Shown here piece by piece: positions 18,547-63,400 of a stretch of DNA of 64,000 bases. The DNA comes from an uncultured Aquimarina sp. GTDB taxonomy: Bacteria; Bacteroidota; Bacteroidia; Flavobacteriales; Flavobacteriaceae. The DNA lies in NCBI RefSeq assembly GCF_947496855.1, contig NZ_CANMED010000003.1, positions 62,001 through 126,000 of the forward strand, written 5' to 3'. The stretch's first letter is position 1. Each line of letters opens with the position of its first letter. The notes below the pieces were generated by a model. The model saw nothing but the letters and a program-made list of their open reading frames with translations. It was not told the DNA's origin and searched no databases. Both the position numbers and the translations under genes were made by a program.

Positions 18547-18547
18547 A

Positions 18548-39755: not shown

Positions 39756-39880
39756 TTTGTATATAATTAGTTATGTGGTTAAGTAACTAATTATATACAA
39801 ATCGAATAAGTAATTTGCGAGATTTTCTGTAAAAAACTCATTACTAAGTTATTAATATTATAAGGTATTATGCACAGTGT
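39756..39880 (-). repeat. Cassette-boundary-like element E3a
   Basis: Contains perfect 18-bp inverted repeat TTTGTATATAATTAGTTA / TAACTAATTATATACAAA (39756-39801); right end overlaps the stop of the 39868-40088 remnant. Confidence 0.5.
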
Positions 39881-40088
39881 TCTTTTATTTTTCTACCAAT
39901 ACCCTTAACTATTTCCACGTGTCTAAGTTTAACATCTTCTTTATTCAAATTGGCTCTTAGTTGGATGCCAATCAACTGACCAAAAAAAACCATCGTTCTT
40001 TCTTTTCTTGATTTTGAATCCTTTCTTTTTGGGGTTGTTTACACCCTAAAAACATGCTGAAGATTATTAATATAAAAAATGTTCTCAT
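39868..40088 (-). pseudogene. Small lipoprotein gene with frameshift
   Basis: MRTFFILIIFSMFLGCKQPQKERIQNQEKKER then other frame MVFFGQLIGIQLRANLNKEDVKLRHVEIVKGIGRKIKEHCA*. Confidence 0.5.
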
Positions 40089-40113
40089 CTGTTTCATTTA
40101 GGCAATGTACTTC

Positions 40114-40299
40114 AACTGTTTGTGTATGAAACGTAACGTGTAAAAAAAGCTAACCTTTCCGATTAAAACAAAACTGTGTTTTTATATTTTATTGAGTTTT
40201 CTTTGTAAAACTAAACCAAAATATTCGACGATCTTTGCTTAGAAGCACAAACCATAGTATTAACAGAGATTTGAGCTATTTTTCATATACATTGCTACC
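40114..40299 (-). repeat. Cassette-boundary-like inverted-repeat element E3b
   Basis: Arms GTGTATGAAACGTAACG and GCTATTTTTCATATAC; internal sequence resembles E7. Confidence 0.55.
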
Positions 40300-40353
40300 A
40301 AACGTTTCTACGATTACTTTCAAAATTATATGTACTAAATTTATTGTTACTTC

Positions 40354-41259
40354 TTAAAAATTAACTGATCTTAACTTATCAATAATTTCTGTGCTTACCC
40401 AATACACATTTGATGACTCATCTTCGTCGGATCTATTAAAAAACAAATATTTGCCATCTGGCGTGATACTCGGGCACGATTCACTAAAATTAGAATTTAC
40501 TTCATTTCCAAGAGGAATTGGTTTTGTCCATGTACCGTCTTTTTCCTTAAAGCAGACATAAATATCGTGATCTTCATTTTCTTTCTTTCGATTATATACC
40601 AATAAATACTCTTGAGATGGAGAAATAAACCCGTGATGACCAAATTCAAGTTCTATTTCTTGTACTTCAGGAAATTCACCGTTTTTGTTGGGCGCATAAT
40701 ACATTTTCGCTTTTGAAATACTTGTATAAAAAAGATCTCCATTTTTAGCTTGATTAATATAAAAAACTAGGTCATCATTAATAGGTGAATCAAGTTTTAT
40801 TGCATCACTCCAAGAGTCCTCTAAACGGTTTACGTACCAAATTTTCTCATCCGAAAAAATAGAATCAAAAGCTGTGAAGTAAATCCTTTTGTCATTAAGA
40901 CTAACGGATGGATATAATTCCTCATTTTTTTTCCCATCGGTAAAATTTGCTCTTTTAACGGGAGTCCATTTATTACCTTTAAGTTTTGAGAAATAGATAG
41001 ATGATGTTTCTTCATCTTTTTCATGAGCTGAAAAATATATTTCATCTAAATCAGGAGAAAACGAAATAGTTGATGCGTTCCTTCCGTTGATTGAAACAAT
41101 TCCAGGAGCAAAAACTTCTGGAATTAAACCTGGTGGTTTTTGTCCAAAATAGAGGTTTTCTGTAGTTGATGAATCACTAACTATTGAGTGCTGTTTTTTA
41201 TTTTTACAAGCATTTACAAACAATGCAAATACAAGTATTAATAATTTAATAAATTTCAT
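40354..41259 (-). CDS. PD40 (WD40-like beta-propeller) lipoprotein
   Basis: Repeats [45 protein letters not shown]; lipobox VNACKNK. Confidence 0.8.
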
Positions 41260-41282
41260 GCTATTTCTTTGTTGTTTATATG

Positions 41283-41425
41283 TTTGCTAATGGTCTAGTG
41301 TTTGAGTAGTAGCGGATTTCTACTTACAGGCCTTTCTGTTCTGCACTGACCTTTGTTTTTATGTTTTTACTTTTATTTTGTCTCTTAAACCGCTATTACT
41401 TATACTCATTGTTAACACCTGCTTT
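41283..41425 (-). repeat. Cassette-boundary-like inverted-repeat element E4
   Basis: Arms GTTTGAGTAGTAGCGG and CCGCTATTACTTATACTCATTGTTAACACCTGC; abuts the stop at 41426. Confidence 0.6.
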
Positions 41426-41764
41426 TTATTTATAGATACTTTCAATATTCAACTCTTCGGTTATCATTTTCTGCAGAGTTTTCAATTCCTTATTGTAGTT
41501 AATATTTTCTTTTTCTTTCTTTTTTAATTCTGATAAAACGTCAAACGCAAAATTTTCCTCTCCATACTCATTCCAATCTTTTTGGAAACTCCTACTCCTA
41601 TGGTTACCGAATTTGAGTTCCATTTTATGTCTGTTCCATTTTGATTCCATATCAATACTATGGTCAATCAGAATTTTATTATTCTTAATGTTTTTTATTT
41701 GAAAAACTCCCATTGGAATTTTCATTTGTTTGTACTCTTCTTTAAGTTCTTTTTTTGTTTTCAT
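41426..41764 (-). CDS. GIY-YIG-like small protein (copy 1)
   Basis: MGVFQIKNIKNNKILIDHSIDMESKWNRHKMELKFGNHRSRSFQKDWNEYGEENFAFDVLSEL. Confidence 0.7.
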   Translation of the reverse strand: MKTKKELKEEYKQMKIPMGVFQIKNIKNNKILIDHSIDMESKWNRHKMELKFGNHRSRSFQKDWNEYGEENFAFDVLSELKKKEKENINYNKELKTLQKMITEELNIESIYK

Positions 41765-41765
41765 A

Positions 41766-42179
41766 TTACATAAATCCTAATTGTTTCATAACAGTTATTC
41801 TGTCAAAAACTTGAGTATGTCCATTAATTAAATTGTCCTTGAAATGATAAATTGTTAACCCTTTTGTATTTATGGTTTTTCTAGTTGGTGGATATCCGCC
41901 AATCATACCAAGGTTTGTACCAGTTAATATCCAAGTTATAGCAACGTGATTTTCTTCTGGAATTGCAGATGTTATTTCAAAATTCATATCAGGAAATGAA
42001 TTGAATGAAAAATTCAATCGTTCTTCGAATTCAGAATGAGATAAAGTTTTTCCTTCCCAAGGGTCAGTTGTATCAAGATGGATTGTATATTCTGGATGAA
42101 CATATTGTTCAACTTTATCAAAATTCTTTTTATTCCAAATTTCAGTCATAAATTCCCGAAGGAAAGATTCTTTGTTCAT
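41766..42179 (-). CDS. SnoaL-like/ester cyclase family protein (copy 1)
   Basis: WNKKNFDKVEQYVHPEYTIHL...PDMNFEITSAIPEENHVAITWILTGTNLGMIGGYPPTRKTINTKGLTIYHFKD. Confidence 0.8.
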   Translation of the reverse strand: MNKESFLREFMTEIWNKKNFDKVEQYVHPEYTIHLDTTDPWEGKTLSHSEFEERLNFSFNSFPDMNFEITSAIPEENHVAITWILTGTNLGMIGGYPPTRKTINTKGLTIYHFKDNLINGHTQVFDRITVMKQLGFM

Positions 42180-42223
42180 CTTCTTTTTTTTAAGTTGGTG
42201 CTAACGTTTAGGTGTTGTTGCGC

Positions 42224-42688
42224 TTAGCTATTTATTATACGCTCAAATTTTATTTTTCTAATTCCGTGGTCAGTATTCCATTGTTTAACTTCTTTGAAAT
42301 CAAATTTTTTATACAATTCAGTTGCAGGCCTATTTTCCAGTCCAGTCTCGACAACAAAAAGATTTGAATCAAATGTATCAAAAACAAATTCCATCAATTT
42401 TCTCGCAATTCCTTTTCTAAAAAAGGATGGATTAACAACTAAACTATGAATGTCTGTAAATTTACTGTTGTGCTCGACCTCAATTACTCCAGCAAGTTCT
42501 CTATCTTTCAAGTATCCAAAAAACTCTGTGTTACTATTAATGTATTTTTCAAGAGGTCTTTTCAAAGGAGGAAAATCAGTAGCATTTAATAATTCGGCTT
42601 CTATCTTATATGCTAATTGAAAAACTGAACGTATTTTTTTAGAGACCTCAATTTCATTATTCTGGAGCTTTTCAATCATCTTATGCAA
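42224..42688 (-). CDS. GNAT family N-acetyltransferase
   Basis: IHSLVVNPSFFRKGIARKLMEFVFDTF, NRPATELYKKFDFKEV. Confidence 0.85.
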   Translation of the reverse strand: MHKMIEKLQNNEIEVSKKIRSVFQLAYKIEAELLNATDFPPLKRPLEKYINSNTEFFGYLKDRELAGVIEVEHNSKFTDIHSLVVNPSFFRKGIARKLMEFVFDTFDSNLFVVETGLENRPATELYKKFDFKEVKQWNTDHGIRKIKFERIINS

Positions 42689-42847
42689 TGGTTTGTTTAA
42701 TTAAGTACAACATGTATGAAGCAGTATGACAAGATGTTAATAAAATAACATAAATAAAAATATTAAATTTTTTCATAATTGATACTAGTGTTTAACAGGT
42801 AGTCGATTTAGAATTAGTAAACTTTTAAGTGTTAGCACCTGCTTTTC

Positions 42848-43183
42848 TCAGTATGTACTTTCAATATTGAGTTCCTCAATCATCATATTTTCAAGAGTTT
42901 TTAATTCTTTATTATAATTAACATTTTCCTCCTCATTATTCTTTAGTTCGGACAAAACTTCAAAATCAAAATTATTTTCTCCATATTCGTTCCAATCTTT
43001 TTGAAAGGTTCTATTTCTATGATTCCCGAATTTAAGTTCCATTTTATGTCTATTCCATTTTGACTCCATATCAATGCTATTGTCAATTAGAACTTTATTG
43101 CTAACTTTATTTTTTATTTGAAAAACTCCCATTGGAATTTTCATTTGTTTATAATCTTCCTTAAGTTCTTTTTTTGTTTTCAT
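42848..43183 (-). CDS. GIY-YIG-like small protein (copy 2)
   Basis: Close paralog of 41426-41764. Confidence 0.7.
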   Translation of the reverse strand: MKTKKELKEDYKQMKIPMGVFQIKNKVSNKVLIDNSIDMESKWNRHKMELKFGNHRNRTFQKDWNEYGENNFDFEVLSELKNNEEENVNYNKELKTLENMMIEELNIESTY

Positions 43184-43184
43184 T

Positions 43185-43598
43185 TTACATAAATCCTAAT
43201 TGTTTCATAACAGTTAATCTGTCAAAAACTTGAGTGTGTCCATTAATCAAATTGTCTTTGAAATGATAAATAGTCATTCCTTTAGTTTTAATAGCTTTTT
43301 TAGTTGGCGAATATTCTCCAATCATTCCAAGATTTATTCCTGTTAGAATCCAAGTTATTGCAACGTGATTTTCTTCTTGAATTGCAGATGTAATTTTAAA
43401 ATTCATATCAGGAAATGAATTGAATGAAAACTTCAATCGCTCTTTAAATTCGGAATGAGTTAAGGTTTTTCCTTCCCAAGGGTCAGAAGTGTCAAGATGA
43501 ATTGTATATTCTGGATGAACATATTGTTCAACTTTTTCAAAACCCTGTTTATTCCAAATTTTGTCCATAAATTCCCGAAGGAATGATTCTTTATTCAT
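43185..43598 (-). CDS. SnoaL-like/ester cyclase family protein (copy 2)
   Basis: Close paralog of 41766-42179, about 19 differences in 137 aa by eye. Confidence 0.8.
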   Translation of the reverse strand: MNKESFLREFMDKIWNKQGFEKVEQYVHPEYTIHLDTSDPWEGKTLTHSEFKERLKFSFNSFPDMNFKITSAIQEENHVAITWILTGINLGMIGEYSPTKKAIKTKGMTIYHFKDNLINGHTQVFDRLTVMKQLGFM

Positions 43599-43621
43599 TG
43601 TGTTTCGTATTTTTTTTTTAA

Positions 43622-43825
43622 GTTGGTACTAACGGTTTGTGTATAAAACGTAGCGTGTAAAAAGATGCCAACTTTTCGGATTAACACAGAGCTGAATTTT
43701 TATATTTTGTTTTACTTTTTCTATTTTAAAAGCCAAATTCAAAAATTTGGCGGTCTTTGTAAATAAGCACGAACCTTTCGATTAATCAATTACTAGCTAT
43801 GTTTTATACACCTTGTTGCAGCCAG
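43622..43825 (-). repeat. Cassette-boundary-like inverted-repeat element E7 (clearest copy)
   Basis: Outer arms GGTACTAACGGTTTGTGTATAAAACGTAGC and GCTATGTTTTATACACCTTGTTGCAGCC; core GTGTATAAAACRTAGC matches 15/16; internal GCCAAATT-CAAA-AATTTGGC hairpin. Confidence 0.7.
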
Positions 43826-43858
43826 TATTTATTTTAATTCATTGTTATAGTTTAATTT

Positions 43859-45073
43859 CTAATTCAAGAGTAGAGCAACATTCCATAAATCAAAATCACT
43901 ACTATAATATTGAAGTGAATTACCACAGTGAACAATTACAGTTTCTTTATGAGGAATAATATAAATATTCTGTCCAAGATTTCCGTTTGCATAAAAATGG
44001 AAAGTACCGTCTTTATTTGCATGACCCCACCATTGATAATTATAATAAATTCTTTTGTTGCTTCTTCCAAACCATTTTGGGTAAATATCTCGAGGAATTG
44101 ATTTGTTTTCTAAAGTAGACTCCTGAACCCAATTTTTTGATATAATCTGATTACCAAACCAATTTCCTTCATTAAGCATAAGCTGACCAAAACGTGCATA
44201 ATCAATCGCCCGGGCAATCAATCGACTTGGCATATATTCAAAATTTGATTCTTTGCTATCTATGGAAAAAAGCGCATCATATTCCATTATTCTTGACCAC
44301 AATTTCTGCTCCAAATAATTGGATACAGTTACGTTAGTAGCTCTTTCAAGAATCAAACCCAAATAACTTGTATTGTAATTAGAATATTGAAAATCTTTTC
44401 CTGGTTCAGATGAAATTTCTACATTTTCAAGTAGCAACTTTCGAACATTAGGGTGATAATAGCCAACTGCTTCATCATGCCAAGGAGAATGAATATTAGT
44501 GAAGGGTATATGACTGGTATTGTATTTGAGCCCAGAACGCATTTCTAGTAAATGTTTGATAGTTATTTTTTTGAAACTTGAATCTCGCTCTAATAACTCA
44601 GGGATATAATTTGTTATTGGGTCATCTACACTTTTGATTATGCCATCATCAATGGCAGCTCCGATTAAAAATGATATAAACGACTTTGACATAGATTGAG
44701 AATGGAAATAGGAATCTCTACTAAAACCATTAAAATATTTCTCATAAATGATTGTATCTTTTTGTATAACAATTAGTGCCGTAGTTTGAGACTCAATAGC
44801 CCATTCTTCAAAACTATTAAATCCAGTTTTTGTTACTAGTTCGTCAAATAGTGACTCAACATATTTCTCTTTAGGCTGAGAAATAAATGTATTGGTGCTT
44901 TTTGCTCCCTGAATCTCGTGATTTCCAAAGTTCTTATAATCATAAACATCGGCTATATTCATTGTTATAAGTCGATAAACATAGGTAGGTGTATATTGAA
45001 TAGAAAGAAGTACCAAGAGGAATAGAACAAATGAAATTATTGTAAGAATTGTAATTTTTAGTTTTTTTATCAT
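43859..45073 (-). CDS. Serine hydrolase (beta-lactamase family, class C-like)
   Basis: SMSK and YSN motifs, YEKYFNGFSRDSYFHSQSMSKSF. Confidence 0.85.
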   Translation of the reverse strand: MIKKLKITILTIISFVLFLLVLLSIQYTPTYVYRLITMNIADVYDYKNFGNHEIQGAKSTNTFISQPKEKYVESLFDELVTKTGFNSFEEWAIESQTTALIVIQKDTIIYEKYFNGFSRDSYFHSQSMSKSFISFLIGAAIDDGIIKSVDDPITNYIPELLERDSSFKKITIKHLLEMRSGLKYNTSHIPFTNIHSPWHDEAVGYYHPNVRKLLLENVEISSEPGKDFQYSNYNTSYLGLILERATNVTVSNYLEQKLWSRIMEYDALFSIDSKESNFEYMPSRLIARAIDYARFGQLMLNEGNWFGNQIISKNWVQESTLENKSIPRDIYPKWFGRSNKRIYYNYQWWGHANKDGTFHFYANGNLGQNIYIIPHKETVIVHCGNSLQYYSSDFDLWNVALLLN

Positions 45074-45225
45074 TTTTTAATGTTTTTGACTATTTGTAAA
45101 GTGTTTCGGATTACTAATTGGCCATTATCAAATTTCTCTATTTCTGCACTGCTTTGTTTTTTATACTTGGAGACGGCAATGATAAGAGTGTATTTCGTTT
45201 GATCAATATCTGATCCTGAAAATTT

Positions 45226-45540
45226 TTACCTACCGCGTATATTTTTAGTTGTACTGGACAGTTCACTCATATCAAGTAAAATATATCCATTGTTTAAACT
45301 TCCTTTATAAGTTCTATATAATGCATAAGAAATTCTCCATGCATCAGGTAGATTATATTCATATGAGAACCCTGTCCCTTCATTTTTTCTGTATTCATCG
45401 TTTTTGGATGAATTATTCCATACTGGTATGATCTGAGTCTCGAAAATTGAATTATCAATCGTCGTTTTAATTGAGCTCGCGTCAATTTTAGACATATTAC
45501 CCTGTGCTAAAACCATGTCAACACAGAGTAAAAATGTCAT
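45226..45540 (-). CDS. Short hypothetical protein, possibly truncated
   Basis: 104-aa ORF only. Confidence 0.35.
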   Translation of the reverse strand: MTFLLCVDMVLAQGNMSKIDASSIKTTIDNSIFETQIIPVWNNSSKNDEYRKNEGTGFSYEYNLPDAWRISYALYRTYKGSLNNGYILLDMSELSSTTKNIRGR

Positions 45541-45789
45541 TGGGGGAATTAACCAACTTATACTATTTTATTTCATTTTAATTACATTTAATTTTATCTG
45601 TTTGACTAATCATCGTTCAAATAGAATTCATTTTAATTAAACATATTTTTTGTAGTTTCAACTTGAAATATTCCATTTTCAATGAAATCATCAAAAAATT
45701 GTAGACAGCTTGAAACGATATATACTTTATTAAGCGTATCATAAATTGTGTTATTAATTTATTCACTTCCTTTCTTTGTTACAGATGAA

Positions 45790-46776
45790 TTAACAAACTT
45801 TTTCATTTACTGTGATTACAACATTTCCTTTTTTATGTCCTTTATCAACATATCTATGCGCTTCGACAATATGATTAATTGAGAACTTTCTATCAATAAC
45901 TACTCGAAGTAGACCTGCTTCAACAAGTCTTTTCAAGATTATTAATGCTTCAGCTGTTTCTGGTGAATTTTTTCCTACAACCACTTTTCTACTAGCATTT
46001 ATTGAAGTCCATATCATTGACAAACTTTTCATAGGTCTACCAATGTTTAAGTAGTATCCATTTTTATTAAGTGCCTTTATACAAACTTTAAAGGGGCATT
46101 TATCTATAGTTATAAATATAATATCATAATTTTCGAAACTTTTCGTGAAACCGGTTTTTTCGTAATCAATAACTTTATCAGCTCCTAAGGATTTCACCAA
46201 ATCTAAATTAGCTTGGCTACATACTCCTGTTACCTCTGCTCCAAAATATTTGGCAATTTGTACGGCATAGGTTCCTACACTTCCAGAAGCTCCATATATC
46301 AACACTTTTTGCTCTGGTTTTATATTTCCTATTGTTTTGAGATAATGAAATGCCGTCCGAGCACCGATAGGTATGGCCGCAGCTTCTTCATAAGTAGCAT
46401 TATTTGGTTTTAAGGCAATCGGTCCATCTTCAGGTAAACATATGTATTCTGCGTAAGCTCCAAATGTTTGCAGGCTAGCCGCGAATACTTGATCTCCTTC
46501 TTTAAACAACTTAACATCTTTACCGATAGATTCAATTTTACCAGAAAGTTCCATTCCTAAAATAGACTTTCTAGGCTTTCTAAGCCCCACCATTAATCGA
46601 GCAGGAAGCCAGAAAGAGACTGGAATATCAAAACTCCGTACTCTATAATCAGCAGCACTTACCGAAGTTGCATGAACTTTCACAAGTATTTCATTATCCT
46701 TTGGAACAGGTTTTTCTACGTCTTGAATTTGTAGAACTTCTGGTGGCCCGTATTTAGTGCATACTACAGCTTTCAT
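45790..46776 (-). CDS. NAD(P)-dependent alcohol dehydrogenase / quinone oxidoreductase (MDR)
   Basis: [50 protein letters not shown]; start trimmed to ATG at 46776 because the ORF start overlaps the neighbour. Confidence 0.9.
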
Positions 46777-46786
46777 CTTTATTAAA

Positions 46787-47209
46787 TTAGGCATGAGATT
46801 CAGTAATATTAATATTATTATGAGTTGGCAATTTCCAAGCAATTCGGAATATCCATAAAATGGCAGCAGTCTCAATAGCCATATGAAACGCATCATCAAT
46901 ATCTAAAGAAGGTATACCTGTCGCAAATACTGCTAATGTGATTATACCGGCGATTATGTTAGCCCATTTATTTACATTTTCACTTAATATTCTGGAAAGA
47001 AGTATCATCAAAATGGGTATTTCTGCTAAAAACCCACCCAATAACATTAATTCGTCTGTTATTTCGATACCGTTGACAGTTCCAGTCATTATCTCTTCGA
47101 TAAATCCTGATTTGACGAATTGATGTAGGTCTCTAAAAATTATATTGAGCAATACAAAAATCCATAAAGTTGACAGTAGCGTTTGAGGTTCAATTTTATT
47201 ATTTATCAT
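46787..47209 (-). CDS. Hypothetical membrane protein
   Basis: Multiple hydrophobic segments, overlaps 47206 gene by 4 bp. Confidence 0.75.
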
Positions 47210-47892
47210 CTAATTAATATTTGTTTTGAAGTTGTTCTAATACCTTCCAATCCATCTTTTAAAAACTTATACACCATAGGGTTAATCAACCAAAGTGGCA
47301 TTCCTTTTGGGTCAAATTGTACACTATTGATTGCTTTACTTGAGTTATTCGTAATTTGTGAAAAACTGCAAGAACCCCTAAAAGTATCAACACGTTTTAG
47401 TTTTTTCGAAGGCTGTATCTGAGATTCTTCCCATGCTTCATTCCATCTTGCCCCAAAACCGCCATCTTCATCGCTGAAAAACAGATACCTGACACTCATT
47501 TCTGTGTTTTTAAAAAAGAACGGTTCATTGTGAATTACATAAGTTAGAATACTATTTTCAGATTCCTCTGAAATTTCATAGGTCGGATACTTTTTATTTT
47601 CAGCATCGTTAGCTAGCTTATCAATATTTTTTTTAAAGGCCTTAAGACAAGCTTCTGAAGATGATTTTACATCTCCTTCAATTTTATACTCTAAGAAATT
47701 TGTTCCTTTTAGTTTTCGTTTATAGATTTTCCAAGTAGGGTTTTGAGATTTATCTACTTTAACTATTTGCCATTCATACTTTTCCCATTCTTTAATACTT
47801 CTATCCCTTACTGATACACAGCTTTGTAGAACAAGAATCACAAATCCAAATAAGAAAATTTGTCTAGTAAGAATTGTAGCTTGTTTATTCAT
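47206..47892 (-). CDS. START/SRPBCC-like lipoprotein
   Basis: Lipobox LQSCVSV; NPTWKIYKRKLKGTNFLEYKIEGDVKSS pattern. Confidence 0.6.
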   Translation of the reverse strand: MNKQATILTRQIFLFGFVILVLQSCVSVRDRSIKEWEKYEWQIVKVDKSQNPTWKIYKRKLKGTNFLEYKIEGDVKSSSEACLKAFKKNIDKLANDAENKKYPTYEISEESENSILTYVIHNEPFFFKNTEMSVRYLFFSDEDGGFGARWNEAWEESQIQPSKKLKRVDTFRGSCSFSQITNNSSKAINSVQFDPKGMPLWLINPMVYKFLKDGLEGIRTTSKQILIR

Positions 47893-48190
47893 TGTAAATG
47901 ATGCTTTAATTGGGGCAAAATTAAACTACAACAAGAGCTTTATCATTAACTTAAGTTACAATCGTCTTGGAGGATGGAAAGTTTCTCTTTGTCTTGATTC
48001 TAATATCATTTTAGAGCATGGAAAATAAATCGCTGGTAGTAACATTTGTCTTATAGAATCGTTTAGTTAATAAATAATACATCAATTTGAAAAATCTATC
48101 TTTGCAACTATAGAATCTTATTTGTAAATTAAGCTAAATCAGAATCATTCTTAAAACATACTTCTGTGTGGATAGTTAAAAAAGTACACT

Positions 48191-48790
48191 ATGGAATTAA
48201 AGGAAAAAGTTAGAGCGATAGTAAGCTGTGCAAACATACTGAACGAAAAGGAAATTGATCTTATCGTCGAAAAAACGATTGTTAAACAATTCAAAAAAGA
48301 TGAAATTTTATTAAGAGAGGGTCAAATTCCAAGCAAGTGTTATATGGTCGTGGAAGGATGTGTAAGAGAGTATTTGATTAAGGACGGAGTAGAAAAATCA
48401 ACAGCTTTCTTTACGGAAGGAGATACTTTTGCACCATTCGCTCATGACGGAAAGGGCTCACCATCTAAACATTTCTGGACCTGTAGTGAAGATTGTGTTT
48501 TAACTGTAAGTAATCAAGCTTTTGAAAAAGAATTAAGAGCAGCACTTCCCAGACTGGATGCTGTTTTTCAACAAATAGCAGTAGAAAAATTGAATAAAGC
48601 GAAAGAAGAATGGAGTATTTTCATATCATCCTCACCAGAAGAAAGATACCTGAATTTACTAGAAACCAGACCAACTCTTTTTAATAGAGTTCCACATCAC
48701 CAAGTTGCAAGCTATCTTGGTATGGAGCCACAATCACTAAGCAGAATTCGTAAAAGAATTTTTGATAATTACTCAAATTCACATAACTAA
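48191..48790 (+). CDS. Crp/Fnr family transcriptional regulator
   Basis: cNMP-binding fold (FKKDEILLREGQIPSKCYMVVEGCVREYLIKDG) and HTH (VASYLGMEPQSLSRIRKRI). Confidence 0.9.
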   Translation: MELKEKVRAIVSCANILNEKEIDLIVEKTIVKQFKKDEILLREGQIPSKCYMVVEGCVREYLIKDGVEKSTAFFTEGDTFAPFAHDGKGSPSKHFWTCSEDCVLTVSNQAFEKELRAALPRLDAVFQQIAVEKLNKAKEEWSIFISSSPEERYLNLLETRPTLFNRVPHHQVASYLGMEPQSLSRIRKRIFDNYSNSHN

Positions 48791-48877
48791 ACTATTTTCA
48801 TTTCATTAATGTTCTGATTAAAGTATTTACAAACAAACTAACAGTATTCATGAATTGTCACTAAACTTAAAATCAGA

Positions 48878-51014: not shown

Positions 51015-51119
51015 AAAGTTTACGTCGTGTTCTCTGTGATTTTTTTATTTTCTTTCTGTATTATAATGATATAGGTTAACCTATTTCAGTAAAGTCTTGG
51101 ATTCATCGTTTTAATGTGT

Positions 51120-51256
51120 GGTAACATTCCGTACAAGCATAGTGCGTTTCGTCAGCGAGTAATTTCCGAAGAAAATTCAGAAGTAATAAAAGAGCACTAG
51201 CTTTTGATTAATCATCTAATTTAGCATTATTTTTATACAATCTTGACAATAGTTTT
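51120..51256 (-). repeat. Cassette-boundary-like element E9 (degenerate)
   Basis: Arms CGTACAAGCATAGTGC (51131-51146) and GCATTATTTTTATACA (51225-51240); abuts the stop at 51257. Confidence 0.45.
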
Positions 51257-51649: not shown

Positions 51650-51661
51650 GATCTTTATTTT

Positions 51662-53662: not shown

Positions 53663-53710
53663 TTAGATACAAGGAATGACAAAATGTTACAAGCTATTTT
53701 TTAATTATTG

Positions 53711-53846
53711 CAAACATCCCGTATAAGCATAGTAGCGGATTTAAAGCACTTTATTTTCGGATAATGAAATACTTAAATAAAATACAAAACGGTTCGAGTT
53801 TACACTCAAACCGCTATTGCGTTTATACATTTGTTAGGCACTGGCT
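53711..53846 (-). repeat. Cassette-boundary-like inverted-repeat element E11
   Basis: Arms CGTATAAGCATAGTAGCGG and CCGCTATTGCGTTTATACATTTGTTAGGCACTGGC, the latter with a GTTAGGC (GTTRRRY) box; abuts the stop at 53847. Confidence 0.65.
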
Positions 53847-54329: not shown

Positions 54330-54379
54330 TGTTTTAAATTTTAAAATATTAATAATAGTTATTTTGTAATTTGGTTGAT

Positions 54380-54997
54380 TTAAGTTTTTATTACTGTAGC
54401 CTTAGGATATGTATTCTTTATTTTTTTGTAAGTGTCAGTACCTCCAGTTACGCGCTCGCCAGTCTCTATATAGTGTTTTAATCCTACAAGCGTTCCAGAT
54501 AATTGATTTTTAAATCCTCCTTTGGCAATTATTCCTAAAAAGACTGGCTTAGTTCTGAATTGAAATTCGTATGAAGCGGTTGAAGTACCATCCCCATTAT
54601 CTTTTACTTTATAAAAAGCTTGAGAATTGTCAAAGTTTAAAGGAAGTTTTGCTCCATCAATTACAACGTTTCTCATTATCATATTTTCGTTATCAATTTC
54701 TGCAATGCGCTCTTTAGACCATTGTATTCCTTTTTCATTAAAATTACATTTGCGTTCAGCTCCTAATTCACCTTTTAAAGAACCATTCGTATATTCAGAA
54801 GTGAAGATATATGGTGAGAAGTTTGATATTTCTCCATAATCCAAAACCATAGCTTTCCATACACGTTCTGCTGGTGCGTCTATTTTTATTTCTACTTTTA
54901 CAGTACGGAACTTTTTAACCATACTTTGGGCTAATGCATTTACACTAATTATTCCTAAGAGTGTGAATGCCAATATTGATTTCATTGTTGTTTTCAT
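54380..54997 (-). CDS. SRPBCC family protein, secreted
   Basis: VEIKIDAPAERVWKAMVLDYGEISNFSPYIFTSEY pattern. Confidence 0.8.
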   Translation of the reverse strand: MKTTMKSILAFTLLGIISVNALAQSMVKKFRTVKVEIKIDAPAERVWKAMVLDYGEISNFSPYIFTSEYTNGSLKGELGAERKCNFNEKGIQWSKERIAEIDNENMIMRNVVIDGAKLPLNFDNSQAFYKVKDNGDGTSTASYEFQFRTKPVFLGIIAKGGFKNQLSGTLVGLKHYIETGERVTGGTDTYKKIKNTYPKATVIKT

Positions 54998-55055
54998 AGT
55001 TCTAAATTTTTAGTTATATAGCTTTGATATGTTATTTATACGGGTGTCACAAAAC

Positions 55056-55559
55056 CTAAGCAATTCTCTTTGAGAGCCTTTCAATTTCTTTTGCTTTATT
55101 CTGACTTGGCTTTCCTGTTTCAACAAAGTGTTTCAAATCATTAGGAATGTGAATAAGTTGTTTGTTTAATTGCAGTTTCATCATAGGATTCATGATACTG
55201 CCAACCAAACCTTTAGTTTTTACTAAAAGATGCATGTTCACTTTTGTGCTTTGTGTGCTTATTTTGGTAAGTTGCCAGTTGTTGATAGCTGTATCCACAA
55301 AGAATGGAAAGCCTTCAACAACTTCGTATTCTAAGATGTAATAACTAGAGTCAAATTTTTTGATGACCTCTTTGATTGTACCCGAAGGTAATTCGCAAGC
55401 CCGATTGTTTGAAGGTGCTCCATTAATTGATGGTGGACCAAACGCTTTAGAATGATTTAAGCCCGATGCCCATTCGTAAGCATCGCCAAATTGATTACCT
55501 AATACTTCCCAAACTGCTTCTATTGGTTTGTTGATGATTATTTCTTTTTTAAATTCCAC
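55056..55559 (-). CDS. SRPBCC family protein
   Basis: KEIIINKPIEAVWEVLGNQFGDAYEWASGLNHSKAFG pattern. Confidence 0.8.
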   Translation of the reverse strand: MEFKKEIIINKPIEAVWEVLGNQFGDAYEWASGLNHSKAFGPPSINGAPSNNRACELPSGTIKEVIKKFDSSYYILEYEVVEGFPFFVDTAINNWQLTKISTQSTKVNMHLLVKTKGLVGSIMNPMMKLQLNKQLIHIPNDLKHFVETGKPSQNKAKEIERLSKRIA

Positions 55560-55688
55560 GTCAATAAATTTTATAGTATTAATGATTTACTGTTTTGATA
55601 CAGGAAAGTATAATGTGTTACAAAACGACAAAGGCTACTCCGATATGGAGTAACCTTTGTAACTAGTTATAAGAAGCTTTTTGGCAGC

Positions 55689-56561
55689 TTATAACTTGAA
55701 ATAACCAGAAAGTTTATTGTTATTTATAAGTTCATTAATAATTGTGTCTTTATCGAAGTCTTCTTTAACAGGATGCTCTTGAAATAATTTAGTGTAAGTC
55801 GAAGTGAAATCGTCTAAAGCTTCTTTATGTTTATGCTCAACAAAATCTTTTACCTTCGTTTTTGTTTTGATATTGAAAAGCATTTTTTCTTCATCTAAAA
55901 CACCCATTTGTTTCAAAGCTTTTGCTTTTTTAGGACATCGACATGGGTTTTCTTTTTTTACTAGTCCGCATTTATTGTTCATGTAGTTAAACAAATCCTT
56001 ACGGGCTCTATGAAGTTTTATCCTAAAATTTTGAGGACTTATACCAAAAATATCCGCTCCAAGCGTATGATCAATTCCAAAACTTGCTCCTATAATAAAA
56101 ATTAAGCGCTGTTCTCTATTTAAACACATAATCATTCCACTCATACATTGAACTTGCATTTCTTTTGATAGCTCTTGGTAGCTTATTTCTTCCTCAATGC
56201 TTAATTCAGGATTTGGAACTTGGTCTAAGCGTTCTCCATAATTATCAAAATCAGAAAATTGCGCTTCGCCTTTTCTTCTTTTGGATTGTAAAAACTCGTT
56301 GACAACAATACGATAAAGCCATGTTCTAAATTTACTTTTAAAGTTGAATTGTCCTAATTTGGTAATTACTTTAATAAGAACTTCTTGGGTCAAATCCTGA
56401 GCGTCTACGGGATTGTGACACATTTTCCACGCCACGTGGTAAATAAATGGCTGATGAAAGTTTATAATGTCATTTAAGGCTTCTTTGTCGCCTTGTATGG
56501 CTTGTTTTACAAGACTTTGTTGTTCTGTATCTGAATATGATTTACTTAAAGGAAATTGCAT
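55689..56561 (-). CDS. ECF RNA polymerase sigma factor with C-terminal extension
   Basis: PVDAQDLTQEVLIKVITKLGQFNFKSKFRTWLYRIVVNEFLQSKRR; extension beyond region 4 with CRCPKKAKAL. Confidence 0.88.
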   Translation of the reverse strand: MQFPLSKSYSDTEQQSLVKQAIQGDKEALNDIINFHQPFIYHVAWKMCHNPVDAQDLTQEVLIKVITKLGQFNFKSKFRTWLYRIVVNEFLQSKRRKGEAQFSDFDNYGERLDQVPNPELSIEEEISYQELSKEMQVQCMSGMIMCLNREQRLIFIIGASFGIDHTLGADIFGISPQNFRIKLHRARKDLFNYMNNKCGLVKKENPCRCPKKAKALKQMGVLDEEKMLFNIKTKTKVKDFVEHKHKEALDDFTSTYTKLFQEHPVKEDFDKDTIINELINNNKLSGYFKL

Positions 56562-56879
56562 AATTAAAGGATTTTCGATTTAGATACAGAATATTACAAA
56601 GTGTTACAAAAGTTCTTGGGTACTCAATTGGTTTTCTGAGCCTATGCCTAACACACGAGTATTGTTACTATTAATTATATCTAGTAGTATATGTAATTAA
56701 TTACAAATACTTACAAACGTATCGTATTGCAACTCGTTTTCTTTGTAAGATTCTAAAAATTACGTCCTCATATTACAAAATGATATATTCTTACTGGCAA
56801 TCGCTACTTACAAAATATTAGTAGTGATAGCGAGGCCGGTTTTTATAGATAAATAAAATCGTCAGGGTCAATAGTCACA

Positions 56880-56911
56880 ATTTATGTTTTATACCTTGTT
56901 GCACACTGGCT
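56880..56911 (-). repeat. Cassette-boundary-like element E12 (right arm only)
   Basis: ATTTATGTTTTATACCTTGTTGCACACTGGCTT, close to right arms of E7 and E11; abuts the stop at 56912. Confidence 0.5.
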
Positions 56912-57781
56912 TTATTCTTTTCGGTTTATTATTCTGTCAAATAATTTTAATTTATCAATTCCAAGTAATACCAAATAAGCAAATAAACTTAAGAAAAAGA
57001 AGGTTACCATAATTCGAAGATAAATCTTAACTGTCCATTCCAATGCTACTTTTACTCTCTGCATAGTTCCTATCTTCACTTCTTTGCCTTCTAAAAGAGA
57101 AAATTGGACTGTACAAAATTCATTTTCATCATCAAAATCTCCAAGACTAACACCAAGTCCTTGAAGTTGCTGTTCTATTTCGAGAATACGGTTTTCTAAT
57201 CCCATATATTCATCTATTTTTCCACCTTTTGATTTTAATTCGATTAATGAGGTTCTGATTTTTTCTAATGATTGTTTTTTAGCATTTAGTTCCTTGTATT
57301 CATTTGTCTTATCTTTCTTTGTTATTTGCTTTGCTTGTACTTTACCAATTGTTATTAATTGACTATACAAATCGTCAAAATTTTCAGGAGGAACTCCAAT
57401 TACTAGATTCAATTTTCGATATCCTTTGTTTCCACTTTTCTGCTCGAATTGGATTAATGCGTCAAGTTTTTTAATCGTTTCTCTAGATGATTTTTCTTCT
57501 TTTTCAAAGTTTGAAGATTTCGTTTTAATTTCTGCAATTTTTTCATACTTCTGGTCAACTTTTATTGCAGATTGATTTCTAGTACCTGATTTTACTTCAT
57601 ATTTCTTCGTTGCGTAGTTCCTTTTGGAGTTAGAAATATTATCAAAAAACTGAGATTGATTCGGTGTCTCATCAAATGTTTTTGTATAACCATACATCAG
57701 TCTGAAAATGAATAAAATTGCAAAAACTAATATTAGCCAAAGAATCAACTTTTTTAATCGTTTCTTAAATGATTGTTTCAT
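56912..57781 (-). CDS. DUF4349 domain-containing protein
   Basis: NLVIGVPPENFDDLYSQLITIGKVQAKQITKKDKTNEYKELNAKKQSLEKIRTSL, C-terminal TM. Confidence 0.8.
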   Translation of the reverse strand: MKQSFKKRLKKLILWLILVFAILFIFRLMYGYTKTFDETPNQSQFFDNISNSKRNYATKKYEVKSGTRNQSAIKVDQKYEKIAEIKTKSSNFEKEEKSSRETIKKLDALIQFEQKSGNKGYRKLNLVIGVPPENFDDLYSQLITIGKVQAKQITKKDKTNEYKELNAKKQSLEKIRTSLIELKSKGGKIDEYMGLENRILEIEQQLQGLGVSLGDFDDENEFCTVQFSLLEGKEVKIGTMQRVKVALEWTVKIYLRIMVTFFFLSLFAYLVLLGIDKLKLFDRIINRKE

Positions 57782-57885
57782 ATTTCAAATGTTTGTTTTG
57801 CTTGTGTATAATGTTCTCATATATGATTTGTTGCGTATTTTAAGTACTTAATTTAGTAAATACGGTGCTGTGGTGTTGTATTTTT

Positions 57886-58047
57886 TCAATTCGTTGTTAT
57901 TTCGTAAGGTTTTTTGGAAATCCATATAGTGTAACTTTTTCCGTAAGTACTTCCACTCTTAATCATTAGCCGTATTCCACTCAAATCTTGTCCATTTACC
58001 GAATTAAAAATCATTGTCATTAGTATTATGAATGTCGTTTTTCTCAT
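57886..58047 (-). CDS. Small secreted hypothetical protein
   Basis: MRKTTFIILMTMIFNSVNGQDLSGIRLMIKSGSTYGKSYTIWISKKPYEITTN*; not in ORF track, flanked by element-like sequences. Confidence 0.4.
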   Translation of the reverse strand: MRKTTFIILMTMIFNSVNGQDLSGIRLMIKSGSTYGKSYTIWISKKPYEITTN

Positions 58048-58202
58048 AAGCGCCACAACATGTTTGTGTATGACTTGTTACGTGAGCAACTAAGATAGCA
58101 AATTGCAGTAAAGACATTGTTAGCTTTGACATGAAAATAGAATTTATACTGTAACAAAACTTATACTGATTCGTCATTAAAATGTAATAAATTACTAAAT
58201 TT

Positions 58203-59243
58203 ATGAAACGTATTTTTTCTATTCTATTATTATTTATTTCAATAATTTTTATAAACTGTAAAAATCACACTTCTATAGATTCTTATATAAAAGAACTAGC
58301 AACAAAAGGTAATTTTAACGGAAACGTCTTAGTAGTTCTAAATGGAGAAAAAGTTTACGAAAATTCTTTTGGATTTTCAGATGGCTCTAAAACAGTAAAA
58401 CTTAATAAAGAGTTCCGTTTTGATTTAGGTTCTGTATATAAAGAATTTCCAGCAGTTTCAATCATGCAACTTCAAGAAAAAGGATTAGTTAATTTAGAGG
58501 ATAAAATAAATGTATATTTAAAAGATTTACCAAGTTGGGCATCAACAATTTCAATTAAAAATTTATTACAATACACAAGTGGTCTTCCAGAGGTTGAATG
58601 GGATAAATATTTTAAAATAGATGAACGAATTACTAATGAAAAAATTAAAGAAGATTTATTAAATATAAAAGAGTTAGAGTTTAAGCCAGGTACAGATTAC
58701 TTATATACCAATCATAGTCCAATGTTATTGTCTCAAATTGTAGAAAAAATCACAAACCAAACTTTTAAAGAGTATGTTACTCAAAATTTATTCACTCCTT
58801 TTTCATTAAAAGATGCAATAATTCATCCACAAGCTCCATATTTAGATAAAAGCTTAATGGCTATTCCTTTTAATGATGATTATGAGGAAGATTCTTATAA
58901 AGTAACAATCTCAGGAGCTATTTTTAGTTTAACTGCAGATGATTTATATAATTGGATAGAAAACCTTCATTCTTATAAAATTATAAATCAAGAATCAATA
59001 AAATTCTTGTCTGAAGAAGCAGATTTTTTTGGAAATATTCAATCTCCTTTAGGTTCTGTAGAATGGGCAAAGAATAGAATTATTGAACATTCTCATCATG
59101 GTTCTGCTGGGAATTATGAATGTATTGTAAGAAGATTTAATAATGATAAAGATGTGTTAACTATTATAGTTCAAACAAATCAGAAACATGAAAATGTAGG
59201 TGATATTTCAGATGAAATCAAAAATATTTTAAAATTCAATTAA
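58203..59243 (+). CDS. Serine hydrolase (beta-lactamase family), lipoprotein
   Basis: SVYK, YTN motifs; lipobox FINCKN. Confidence 0.85.
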   Translation: MKRIFSILLLFISIIFINCKNHTSIDSYIKELATKGNFNGNVLVVLNGEKVYENSFGFSDGSKTVKLNKEFRFDLGSVYKEFPAVSIMQLQEKGLVNLEDKINVYLKDLPSWASTISIKNLLQYTSGLPEVEWDKYFKIDERITNEKIKEDLLNIKELEFKPGTDYLYTNHSPMLLSQIVEKITNQTFKEYVTQNLFTPFSLKDAIIHPQAPYLDKSLMAIPFNDDYEEDSYKVTISGAIFSLTADDLYNWIENLHSYKIINQESIKFLSEEADFFGNIQSPLGSVEWAKNRIIEHSHHGSAGNYECIVRRFNNDKDVLTIIVQTNQKHENVGDISDEIKNILKFN

Positions 59244-59429
59244 GTATTAAAAGGCTTATGTTAAATTTATTGTTTCAGAAATTCCTGTGAATCTGTTGTT
59301 AATAACTCTGAAAACTGACTTGAAGTACTTTGTGCAAAATTCCGTTGTCACCTTTTACAAAGTCGATAATTTAATTATTTTATTTTATAGGTTTTCTCCA
59401 TTTTACATTTAAATTTAGGTGTTTTTTGC

Positions 59430-59572
59430 TTGTAGATAACCTGTTCGTATATGGTTAATTGCGTTGGTAAGCACTAAGCTAGTAAATAGAAAACGAACTA
59501 AAAGAAAATTCGCAGGATTTTCCTAGTACACTCAAACTAGCAATTAACTATATACGTCTTTGTTGAAGCTCG
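59430..59572 (-). repeat. Cassette-boundary-like inverted-repeat element E14
   Basis: Arms CGTATATGGTTAATTGC (59446-59462) and GCAATTAACTATATACG (59540-59556), 16/17 complementary; TTGTTGAAGC right end. Confidence 0.6.
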
Positions 59573-59617
59573 TTAAGTTTATCACTTTTTTATAAGCAAA
59601 TTTCACACATTAGTTAA

Positions 59618-60871
59618 CTAATTATTTAAGAGAAAATTAAGTAAATTTATTTGAAACTTATTTTTGTTTTCTGAATTGGTAAAAAACACATAACCTACCT
59701 TCTTTTCTAGATTAAGCATGTATAGTGCTGTATTACTTAAGTTATCACCTCCGTGAGAGTAATGGGTGCCATAACCAGATTCTTCAATACCAATTCCTAA
59801 TCCATATTTCTGTTCTTTTGATCTTTCAGTTGCTAGTTTCCTTGATTGTATTTTTAATAGCTCTTTAAGACCGTTTTCTGATAATATTTTATTATTCATA
59901 ATCGCCATTAAAAAATTTGAAAATTCTTTCGATTCTGTTTGTAGACTAGCCGATGCTTTAAAACCAGGATCTTTTGCACTGTTCCCATACCCTTTATTTA
60001 GTTTACCTCTAAAATGACCATTAGCACGATGATTTTCAATATAATCATTCCAAACAAAACTAGAATTTTTCATTTCTAGAGGTTTAAAAATAACTGTTTT
60101 AATCAAGCCTTGTAGTTCATTCTTTTCAACTCCTTTAAGATGAGCAATTACTTTAGCCAAATATTCATAACCTTCTCCTGAATATTGAAATTTAGTTCCC
60201 GGTTCAAATTGTATAGTAAGCTTCCTATCTGGATCATAATTGCCTTCTTTATCTAGAAATCTCCAATTAGGAAATCCACTCGTATGAGATAATACCATTC
60301 TAGCGGTAATTGCTTTATACCGCTCATCGTAAGCAATGTCTGGGTATTTCATATAGGTATATAGTGGTGTGTCCAAATCAAGAAGGCCATCGTCTATCAT
60401 TTTCAAAGTAAAAAAACTGAACACTGTTTTAGACATAGAAGCAGCATCAAAAATGGTATAATCATCTACTTTCTCGTTGGTTTCATTATTTTTAACTCCT
60501 AATGCATTGTGATACACTATTTTATTATCATTAATAAATGCTATAGAAAGTCCTGGCATATTTAGTGAATCCATTTGATGTTTAATAAAGGCATCCATTT
60601 CAGATTTAGAGATAAGATTACCATTAAAAGATCGAATTGAATCTTGGTTTTTGGTCTTCTCATTTTCTGAACGATTCATTGTAACAATACCTATTTTTCC
60701 TTGTATTCTATTTATAGTTATAATTGAACCAGTCACATAAGATGGCATAGAAATTAATAATATTAATAAGGAAGTATAAAATAGATGTCTTGATTTTGAT
60801 TTTTGTTGATGATTCATTTTTTCGTTTTTTTGATTGATGTTATATAATAATGTGTGCAGTTTAAAATACAC
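59618..60871 (-). CDS. Serine hydrolase (beta-lactamase family)
   Basis: SMSK, YSG motifs; HSGG near C-terminus (HYSHGGDN). Confidence 0.87.
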   Translation of the reverse strand: MYFKLHTLLYNINQKNEKMNHQQKSKSRHLFYTSLLILLISMPSYVTGSIITINRIQGKIGIVTMNRSENEKTKNQDSIRSFNGNLISKSEMDAFIKHQMDSLNMPGLSIAFINDNKIVYHNALGVKNNETNEKVDDYTIFDAASMSKTVFSFFTLKMIDDGLLDLDTPLYTYMKYPDIAYDERYKAITARMVLSHTSGFPNWRFLDKEGNYDPDRKLTIQFEPGTKFQYSGEGYEYLAKVIAHLKGVEKNELQGLIKTVIFKPLEMKNSSFVWNDYIENHRANGHFRGKLNKGYGNSAKDPGFKASASLQTESKEFSNFLMAIMNNKILSENGLKELLKIQSRKLATERSKEQKYGLGIGIEESGYGTHYSHGGDNLSNTALYMLNLEKKVGYVFFTNSENKNKFQINLLNFLLNN

Positions 60872-60990
60872 ATTTTAATTTTAACCATAATGGAACAGCA
60901 TCACTTCCGTATTTGTCCATTAAGCCAAATAATGTAGCCTTTTCAGATTGACTAGAATATACGTATGCAATTCTACAACTTATCAATGGT
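60868..60990 (-). pseudogene. C-terminal gene fragment
   Basis: Open minus-strand frame NAPPLISCRIAYVYSSQSEKATLFGLMDKYGSDAVPLWLKLKCVF* without a start codon. Confidence 0.3.
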
Positions 60991-60999
60991 GGTGCATTT

Positions 61000-62427
61000 T
61001 TACTCGCTCTGTAACTCGCTAATCGCATTTAAAGTATTCTTTTTGTCTTGTTCTAAATCGTTTACTACATATCTGAAAAATGTCTGTCTATCTTTGGGGT
61101 AATTCAATTCGTAATGAACAGGAACTCCAATGTTTTCGTAAAGTTTACCATTCTTATCTGTGTAAATTTCGTTTGAAACTGAAAAATACCATCCGTTTGG
61201 TAAAGTCTTTTGTAAAGCATCTGAAATTGCTCCATTTGTATGTGAGCCAATACGCTTTAAATTATTTAATTCCATTGAACTTAAAGCCATCATATCGGTT
61301 GCGCTTGCCGATTGTTGGGAAGTCATTAGGTAAACTGGTTTTGTATAAGGGTTTTTGGCAGGCTCTAAATAAATCGGTGTTTTTTTGGTGAAGTCATTAT
61401 TGTGTCTTGCTTTTTTTACACCGATTTGTTTTTTATCAACGTTAAATCTTCTCAAAATTTCTAAGGCCACTACATCTTGACCACCACCATTAAAACGAAC
61501 ATCTATAATAATATGTTTTGTTTCTTTTAGGTCTTGCATTATTGTATCCATTAACTTACTTATTCCAATTACCTCTTCTGCAATTTGTTTTTCGTAATTC
61601 AAACTGTCAAATACGTCCATGTAAGTTGAAATATATCCGTTTTCTTTAACTAGACTATCATTTAAGTTCAAATCTGCATACAGAAACATTGTTTTAATTT
61701 GAATATAGCCGACATTGTTTTCCATCTTCCCCCATTTTATAAGCCACGAATCTTTGGTCAAATCCTCTTTAAGATAATAATCTGCAACAATTTCAGCAAT
61801 CTCAAAATCGCCATATTCTTTTAATTCTTCCGTTTCTTCGTCTTCAATTTCAGACTGAATTTGACTCTCTGCCAATTCGTAAATTTCATCCGTTGGTTCT
61901 ATTGAACCGTGGTTGTCTTTTAATCTTTCAATCATATCTTCCATCACTAAAAATAAGTTAACTTCCGTACTTTTTGAGTCGATTTTATTTTTTGCTTTTT
62001 TGTAAAGACTGTCCCAATCAACATTATTGAGGTCTAAATAAGCATAATGATTTTTGTAGGTATTTGCAAAAACCTCAAAATTATATGAGATGTCGTTTTT
62101 GTCTTTTAAATTTTCATGGCACAAGTCTGGAAACTTGTTTAATCTTACATAGCGATATTTGCTAAATCCACGTTCTATGGTAAGGGTATCATTTGAAATT
62201 TGTATTGAGTTTTTAACTTCTGAAATATCGCCTTCTTTTACAGGTAAACAAGAGACATCTGTTATGTCAAAATATTTATAAGTATTAGCGTCTATTTTAA
62301 GAATTTTTCCATAACCTATAGATTCCCAAATTCCTTTGATTGAGTTATTTTTATCGTTATTTGGTTTGCAACCAATTAATAAAATTAAAATTAGTAGAAT
62401 AGCAGAAAGAGTAGCTTTAGTTCGCAT
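61000..62427 (-). CDS. S41 family peptidase, lipoprotein
   Basis: IIDVRFNGGGQDVVALEILRRF, YLMTSQQSASATDMMALSSMELNN; lipobox LIGCKPN. Confidence 0.85.
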   Translation of the reverse strand: MRTKATLSAILLILILLIGCKPNNDKNNSIKGIWESIGYGKILKIDANTYKYFDITDVSCLPVKEGDISEVKNSIQISNDTLTIERGFSKYRYVRLNKFPDLCHENLKDKNDISYNFEVFANTYKNHYAYLDLNNVDWDSLYKKAKNKIDSKSTEVNLFLVMEDMIERLKDNHGSIEPTDEIYELAESQIQSEIEDEETEELKEYGDFEIAEIVADYYLKEDLTKDSWLIKWGKMENNVGYIQIKTMFLYADLNLNDSLVKENGYISTYMDVFDSLNYEKQIAEEVIGISKLMDTIMQDLKETKHIIIDVRFNGGGQDVVALEILRRFNVDKKQIGVKKARHNNDFTKKTPIYLEPAKNPYTKPVYLMTSQQSASATDMMALSSMELNNLKRIGSHTNGAISDALQKTLPNGWYFSVSNEIYTDKNGKLYENIGVPVHYELNYPKDRQTFFRYVVNDLEQDKKNTLNAISELQSE

Positions 62428-62573
62428 AACATTATTTGATTTTCACTCTAAAGATTACATTTTTTTATGTTTGTTACAGTTTTTCTTAAATGCACCACAA
62501 CATGCGGGGATATATTACTATTACATTTAGTACCGCTTGTTATTAATTATGAACGTATACTAAACAACATAAA

Positions 62574-62596
62574 AAACAACCATAATGCACAAAAAC
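62574..62596 (-). terminator. Terminator hairpin, repeated module copy 2
   Basis: AACAACCATAATGCACAAAAACTATGATTG, T-run on minus side; similar module at 37391-37450. Confidence 0.5.
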
Positions 62597-62650
62597 TATG
62601 ATTGCTATATATTCTTACTCTTATTCACAGACTAGGGATGGCAGGATTTT

Positions 62651-63400
62651 TTATATTTTTCCATTAAGCGTTTTCAATCTATTCAGTTCGTCAAATTCTG
62701 CAACTAAAACTTTATTGTTTCTTAAGCCTTCAATTTTATTTTCTTGTATATTTATTTCAAAGCTTCGATCAATCAAATAGTTTTTAAAAGCTTCTTTATG
62801 GTTTAAATCTATTCCGCTAATTACTTGTGGGAAAGTAGTCAGAACCTTCTCCAATCTGTTTTCATCTACTTTTGGAATTTTATCACTTTTCAAGGTCAAA
62901 ACCATTGTCCCCTGTCCATAGTTTGCGCAAAAATATGCATCTGCATTAAGAAGCCCGCTTGCAACTATTCCCATTTTATGCTCAAACCCTTCCTCTACAC
63001 TAAAATGTCCTTTTGTAAATTCTTCAATTTGTTTTTCTTCTCCAGTTTTTTTCATATTTAATGAACCCATTAAAAGATTTTCAGGGATTCCACTTTTAGC
63101 GTTAGCCCATCCCCACATCCAAGAGTAATCATTGAAAGACAAGGATCCAATTACTTCTATAGGAAAATCAATATCTCCAAAAGATAAGGTTGCAGTATTT
63201 AGATCGATATTCCAAGCTAAACCTCCAGTTAAATCATTAAAATTCTGTTGTTTTTCAAAAGAAAGACCCGCATTCTGATTTACTAAGTCAATAAAATTTT
63301 TAAATTCATTCTTACTGATTAATGAAAAGTCGGATTGATTAATTTCAATATTAGTATTTTTCTTTTCAGGTTTTCCAAATAGTTTTTTAAATATACTCAT
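62651..63400 (-). CDS. DUF6882-like hypothetical protein
   Basis: GSLSFNDYSWMWGWANAKSGIPENL motif typical of the family. Confidence 0.65.
   Translation of the reverse strand: MSIFKKLFGKPEKKNTNIEINQSDFSLISKNEFKNFIDLVNQNAGLSFEKQQNFNDLTGGLAWNIDLNTATLSFGDIDFPIEVIGSLSFNDYSWMWGWANAKSGIPENLLMGSLNMKKTGEEKQIEEFTKGHFSVEEGFEHKMGIVASGLLNADAYFCANYGQGTMVLTLKSDKIPKVDENRLEKVLTTFPQVISGIDLNHKEAFKNYLIDRSFEINIQENKIEGLRNNKVLVAEFDELNRLKTLNGKI

Follow-up and report, generated by a model that had tools for sequence, protein, structure and literature searches.

Introduction

Gene-cassette libraries are a means for bacteria to collect and swap genes, and cassette capture has so far been tied to the integrase IntI. 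Integrons (IntI/attI/attC), including sedentary chromosomal ones such as those of Vibrio, combine a tyrosine recombinase, an attI site, and a directional array of mostly single-gene cassettes, in which a hairpin site (attC) past each stop codon displays an AAC/GTT core, a GTTRRRY box, and a bias toward folding of the bottom strand. The cassette boundary falls at the core and is defined by the cassette's own two ends, similar repeats recur throughout one array, and turnover takes place at attI. In Bacteroidetes, IntegronFinder 2.0 reported a complete integron in Salinibacter alone (PMC9024848). Here, we analyzed a 64,000-nucleotide stretch (the window) from the genome of an uncultured Aquimarina sp. 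(contig NZ_CANMED010000003.1, hereafter C3; C3:62001-126000). A preliminary description of window positions 39756-63400 had noted an inverted-repeat element recurring at the stop codons of unrelated genes and had read it as an integrase-less cassette array.

In the window, the repeats mark a decayed margin of a gene-cassette library that extends across the Aquimarina genome and shares the integron traits listed above with the exception of the GTTRRRY box. The structure of the sites, the boundaries of the cassettes, their association with a recombinase and an attI-like site, the switching of cassettes at that site, and the sharing of cassettes between genomes are all directly visible in the DNA. 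We put at about 0.88 the probability that this library represents a Bacteroidota integron-like gene-capture platform operating with a non-IntI recombinase. No description of these arrays was found in the open-access literature, which is weak evidence of absence, and other papers could overturn the novelty.

Results

The repeats form a family of folded sites

Sixteen clear copies of the element from the source genome were aligned to derive a consensus fold and a covariance model, termed R1. The bottom-strand fold comprises 33 pairs, 22 of which display compensatory changes in this alignment. Searching the source genome with R1 returned ~74 copies at E <0.01, clustered on C3 (at 0.9-20 kb and at 102-145 kb, the second range taking in the elements of the window) as well as on contigs C9, C12, C13, C15, C16, and C17, with intact arrays on C9, C12, and C13. 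A covariance-model search, which the preliminary description had proposed for the genome and for Flavobacteriaceae, also located sites in the recombinase loci of relatives. Among 150 aligned copies from relatives, 92.6% of the stem cells were paired, in comparison to 72.3% in shuffled and 28-52% in slid versions, and the covariation score of 0.476 (0.154 when shuffled) was matched by none of 500 shuffles; the alignment was fitted to R1 and leans to the structure of the model, the shuffles and slides nonetheless falling far lower. Arms that are complementary within an element and differ in sequence between elements, as first reported for the window, are thus found beyond chance, and the imperfect inverted repeat of attC, conserved in structure and variable in sequence, is present in the sites.

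Predicted folding was stabler for the bottom strand in 278 of 327 sites, with gene-body controls leaning the opposite way (52 to 193). The AAC and GTT cores are near invariant, but the box fits GTTRRRY in just 35/327 sites (11%), and the assignment of the elements to canonical attC did not hold in this respect.

Each cassette carries a private key at both of its ends

In gene orientation, a unit is composed of a GTT, a private key of ~7 nt, the gene, the complement of the key, AAC, a short spacer, the L'' arm, a variable middle, the L' arm, and ~3 nt plus a C, after which the next GTT follows. Instead of the GTTRRRY of integrons, the box here reads GTTRNNN, the key being private and paired. 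In 150 cassettes from relatives, the sequence after the start GTT matched the complement of that before the cassette's own AAC at 6.0 of 8 positions, while the two sides of one in-array site matched at 2.5 of 8, which is chance level (shuffled cassette ends, 2.46 ± 0.11 of 8, with a maximum of 2.79 in 1000). With the source genome and close relatives added to the pool, own ends matched at 6-7 of 7 positions in 210 of 253 cassettes (46/55 for the source genome alone), and homologous cassettes with altered keys were altered at both ends (e.g., ACCCAAC versus AGCAAAT). A fully paired site would therefore exist only in the circular unit. Because R boxes pair between a cassette's own ends and not within the in-array site, an early pattern scan of the window that demanded long R-box pairing inside every in-array site was unsuccessful. 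Past the matching key, the start and end of cassettes in loci L077-L155 show a consistent A versus G difference near position 8; on the bottom strand, this would amount to a G.T wobble.

Elements equally frequent away from stop codons and in both orientations had been named in the preliminary description as evidence against cassettes. We observed one orientation only and a median of 14 nt between the stop codon and the start of the site (AAC). Furthermore, the longest open reading frame (ORF) was co-oriented in 172 of 182 cassettes, and units usually hold a single gene. Hairpins forming ~14 nt past stop codons could also be expected of transcription terminators or of structures at the 3' ends of the mRNAs of unrelated genes, but it is the bottom strand that is stabler, opposite to an RNA function of the coding strand, and terminators would account neither for the invariant AAC/GTT and the cassette-end keys nor for units common to genomes junction to junction. 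We consider this explanation hardly conceivable.

A tyrosine recombinase outside the IntI clade heads the arrays

The source genome encodes a tyrosine recombinase of ~377 aa (C9:13268-14410) that heads an array. Relatives of this protein were collected from 80 loci in Aquimarina, Maribacter, Winogradskyella, Flavivirga, Lacinutrix, Olleya, Psychroserpens, Mangrovimonas, and others, a set that also takes in Cyclobacteriaceae, Fulvivirga, and Saprospiraceae. R1 was run over ~707 kb on the upstream and ~338 kb on the downstream side of the recombinase and matched 213 times; one match lies upstream (L078:1614) and the rest downstream, effectively on one strand, two of the 213 being mirror matches of a palindromic site. 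Sites were present in 45 of the 49 loci having at least 2 kb downstream, and in 17 loci the contig stops within 700 bp past the recombinase gene, as repeats would predict. The tyrosine recombinase that the preliminary description had suggested looking for next to such arrays is hence located upstream of them and co-oriented.

A many-copy inverted-repeat family with conserved inner sequence might instead consist of miniature inverted-repeat transposable elements (MITEs) or of inverted repeats with another transposon origin that prefer to land after stops. However, flanking direct repeats of the kind left by target-site duplication, the mark by which MITEs were to be told apart, are no commoner than in shuffles. 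Moreover, the sites keep a single orientation, the arrays are recombinase-proximal, and the variable end sequence is common to both ends of the gene unit and not to those of the element, which makes a MITE origin very improbable.

The catalytic residues R236, K261, H325, R328, H351, and Y360 are invariant. The recombinase scored 200 bits against the IntI family model TIGR02249, below its cut-off of 265, and its best family match was NF040815 (recomb_XerA_Arch, named by NCBI "site-specific tyrosine recombinase/integron integrase") with 229 bits for a cut-off of 220; archaeal XerA structures (5hxy, 4a8e) were among the best PDB matches. The additional domain that IntI carries near patch III was not found in the array recombinases. 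Of 80 measurable array recombinases, 79 have a distance of 91-92 aa from GLR to HxLRH, versus 133-134 aa in IntI and 96 aa in the genome's own Xer, and the alignment with PDB 2a3v passes over the IntI-specific segment. In a phylogenetic tree, 15 IntI sequences formed one clade (100/100) on a long branch with the array recombinases outside it, long branches leaving the exact placement in the wider family unsure. Despite the likeness to XerA/XerC/XerD-type proteins, the array recombinase is distinct from the XerC/D-like genes of the source genome and differs from the Xer type by its constant association with cassette arrays and by an extra N-terminal domain of ~100 aa.

This domain brings the Flavobacteriaceae-type recombinase to a total of ~375 aa. 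Its AlphaFold model (mean predicted local distance difference test score, 83.7) displays a beta-beta-alpha-beta-beta-alpha-beta order, with no Pfam match and no significant PDB fold match; a HARP-like fold was unsupported, SMARCAL1 HARP (4o66) and XPB (2fwr) appearing at E 0.39 or worse. Two layouts were observed. Flavobacteriaceae mostly have a recombinase with the N-terminal domain that is co-directional with the array, both being departures from integrons. In the second (L215-L218 and L221, from several distant genomes and one of the same family), a ~280-aa recombinase is divergent from the array, and a hairpin attI-like sequence again lies just past the recombinase. Across loci L215-L221, of which L220 is co-directional, own ends matched at 6-7 of 7 positions in 11 of 17 cassettes. 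A 277-aa recombinase, 42% identical, was also noted near an Aquimarina array (G022:C188:127822-128625) and may be a second recombinase type.

Cassettes turn over at a hairpin attI-like site

In ~40 loci, a hairpin and usually an AATT/GTT junction precede the first cassette, which begins 35-75 bp past the stop of the recombinase. The hairpin lies at a roughly fixed distance, ~45 bp past the stop, and forms a near-perfect stem (score of at least 8) in 69% of 75 loci, compared with 0.4% of shuffles; the stem sequence differs among loci. With its near-perfect hairpin at this distance, the site is unlike classical attI. Close relatives whose recombinases are 94-97% identical have nearly the same sequence up to the ATT/GTT junction and then four different first cassettes. 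Among 63 pairs of homologous cassettes, 38 align from one junction to the other, including 20 pairs from different genomes, but many of these pairs represent one repeated cassette family and the count is therefore not one of independent events. One pair, from another uncultured Aquimarina and the source genome, is 99% identical over its whole 850 bp within unrelated flanks. The contig ends at C9 (G000:C9:1-60, L018) and C13 (L010:6110-6191) carry the same cassette start, GTTACCATACATAAAAATCAG, after different sites, and the assembly thus breaks at a duplicated cassette. A synteny search with the left flank of the window yielded nothing beyond weak matches in relatives; attI and shared cassettes, rather than the window, therefore served to test for gain and loss. 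The gain or loss expected of cassettes in the preliminary description was seen exactly at the element boundary.

Sites co-occur with the recombinase across Bacteroidota

In a sample of 395 genomes of the phylum, R1 matches were found in 52, an A3-type recombinase in 110, and both in 37. Within the genus, five Aquimarina genomes (G002, G004, G011, G038, and G042) hold 25-29 sites and no close full-length recombinase. The arrays could also be classical integrons, or clusters of attC sites lacking integron-integrases (CALINs), served by a true IntI that is located elsewhere or lost, the adjoining recombinase being a bystander. The attC architecture of the sites and their cassette logic would agree with this, and a true IntI is frequent in the phylum at large (105/395 sampled genomes). 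However, no IntI above cut-off was detected in the source genome or in the sampled family or order, few boxes fit GTTRRRY, and in five distant genomes with both sites and IntI (G112, G128, G166, G173, and G200), the sites are ~1-6 kb from an A3-type recombinase with IntI on other contigs. We find this explanation improbable and favor a non-IntI recombinase as the partner of the arrays.

The window holds an old, decayed cassette set

The six elements of the preliminary description (E3b, E4, E7, E9, E11, and E14) were all recovered by R1, in the window and in the whole-genome search, on a single strand and in the orientation of the minus-strand genes (Table 1). Taken singly, E4 and E9 are weak matches. 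E4, E9, and E11, described as lying directly at minus-strand stops, end 6-7 nt from those at 41426, 51257, and 53847, respectively, and 36 nt separate the end of E7 from the stop at 43859.

Table 1. Features of the cassette cluster, in window coordinates
Feature	Position	Strand	Evidence and remarks
E3b attC-like element	40108..40302	- (gene orientation; folded bottom strand is +)	R1 E 8.2e-9; left core AAC changed to AGC, decayed
E4 attC-like element	41283..41419	-	R1 E 0.003; right core GTT changed to ATT, decayed
Decayed two-gene cassette with E4 at its end	41426..42205	-	Small ORF 41426-41764 and ORF 41766-42179
GNAT acetyltransferase ORF	42224..42688	-	Pfam Acetyltransf_10, 3.6e-13; truncated site remnant AACAACACCTAAACGTT at stop
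Second cassette, homologous to 41426..42205	42848..43632	-	ORF 42848-43183 and SnoaL-like ORF 43185-43598 (Pfam SnoaL, 5.6e-24)
E7 attC-like element, best preserved of the window	43625..43823	-	R1 177.6 bits, E 2.5e-33; member of the R1 training set
Beta-lactamase-fold serine hydrolase gene preceding E7	43859..45073	-	Pfam Beta-lactamase, 2.3e-27
E9 attC-like element	51117..51250 (C3:113117-113250)	-	R1 E 0.0046; AAC lost
E11 attC-like element	53707..53841 (C3:115707-115841)	-	R1 E 8.9e-7
E14 attC-like element	63416..63609	-	R1 E 2.1e-14

The AAC/GTT core is partly gone in E3b, E4, and E9, and no unit of the window retains two well-matching ends. The best is the first two-gene cassette, whose start GTTAGCACCA at 42205 matches the complement of its end GTTAACACCT at 5/7 positions; the second, as read from the sequence, has GTTAGTACCAAC as its start box and GTTAGCACCTGC as its end box. 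The cluster is an old, decayed cassette set without a recombinase nearby. With six R1 sites, and with no TIGR02249 match on C3 and nothing over cut-off in the whole source genome, it falls within the definition of a CALIN (at least two sites without a nearby integrase), although its sites belong to a non-canonical family and not to canonical attC. The term "integrase-less" is accordingly accurate for the window cluster and inaccurate for the genome, in which a non-IntI recombinase heads the array on C9.

Window positions 41424-41723 and 42843-43142 are 79% identical and belong to copies of the two-gene unit (small ORF and SnoaL-like protein), probably a single cassette that was duplicated. An Rfam search of the window gave no matches. 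Elsewhere in the window, the plus strand of 11251-26682 holds a tandem run of six ORFs of ~780-815 aa.

Discussion

The arrays work like an integron, yet lie outside the group by the features tested for membership, namely, the IntI family, its insert, its clade, and the GTTRRRY box. The original reading of the window as a cassette array is borne out by self-complementary ends, by a recombinase co-located with an attI-like site, by the exchange of first cassettes, and by cassettes shared in unrelated surroundings. From comparison of these sequences, we infer a circular intermediate, use of the bottom strand, and the recombinase as the catalyst. In the proposed mechanism, the ~375-aa tyrosine recombinase would capture circular gene cassettes, whose two ends, once joined in the circle, would form a folded site with complete pairing. 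Acting on the bottom strand in its folded state, the recombinase would then link this site to the hairpin attI, with crossover at the GTT, such that new cassettes would enter beside the recombinase and older ones drift away.

Several observations weigh against this interpretation. In-array R'' and R' are unpaired beyond the core, which may make excision from the array inefficient. The extrahelical base that characterizes attC is often absent, an extra base at the main L'' position being present in 55 of the 150 aligned sites. The recombinase of the source genome is on contig C9 and not near the window cluster. Among 45 genomes of the genus, ~13 are without a close full-length recombinase; since most of those nevertheless carry sites, either decay or a different recombinase has to be assumed for them. 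Finally, the Fisher p of 2.6e-12 for the co-occurrence of R1 matches and A3-type recombinases (37/52) is uncorrected for shared ancestry.

More tentatively, and with less than even confidence, we suggest that a separate cassette-capture lineage has formed around a non-IntI recombinase and spread over Bacteroidota, with a private 7-nt paired key for each cassette. A site paired perfectly in the free circle alone, with mismatches after integration, would bias the system toward capture over excision, and the hairpin form of attI raises the possibility that each partner is recognized as a folded single strand. These ideas make several questions testable, including which strand is used, what roles the N-terminal domain and the hairpin attI play, and whether the key favors capture over excision. 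If the platform is as proposed, a second recombinase lineage would imply that structure-specific capture arose more than once or diverged far beyond what is known, and marine Bacteroidota would harbor a large, uncounted pool of cassettes likely to escape detection by standard attC and IntI models.

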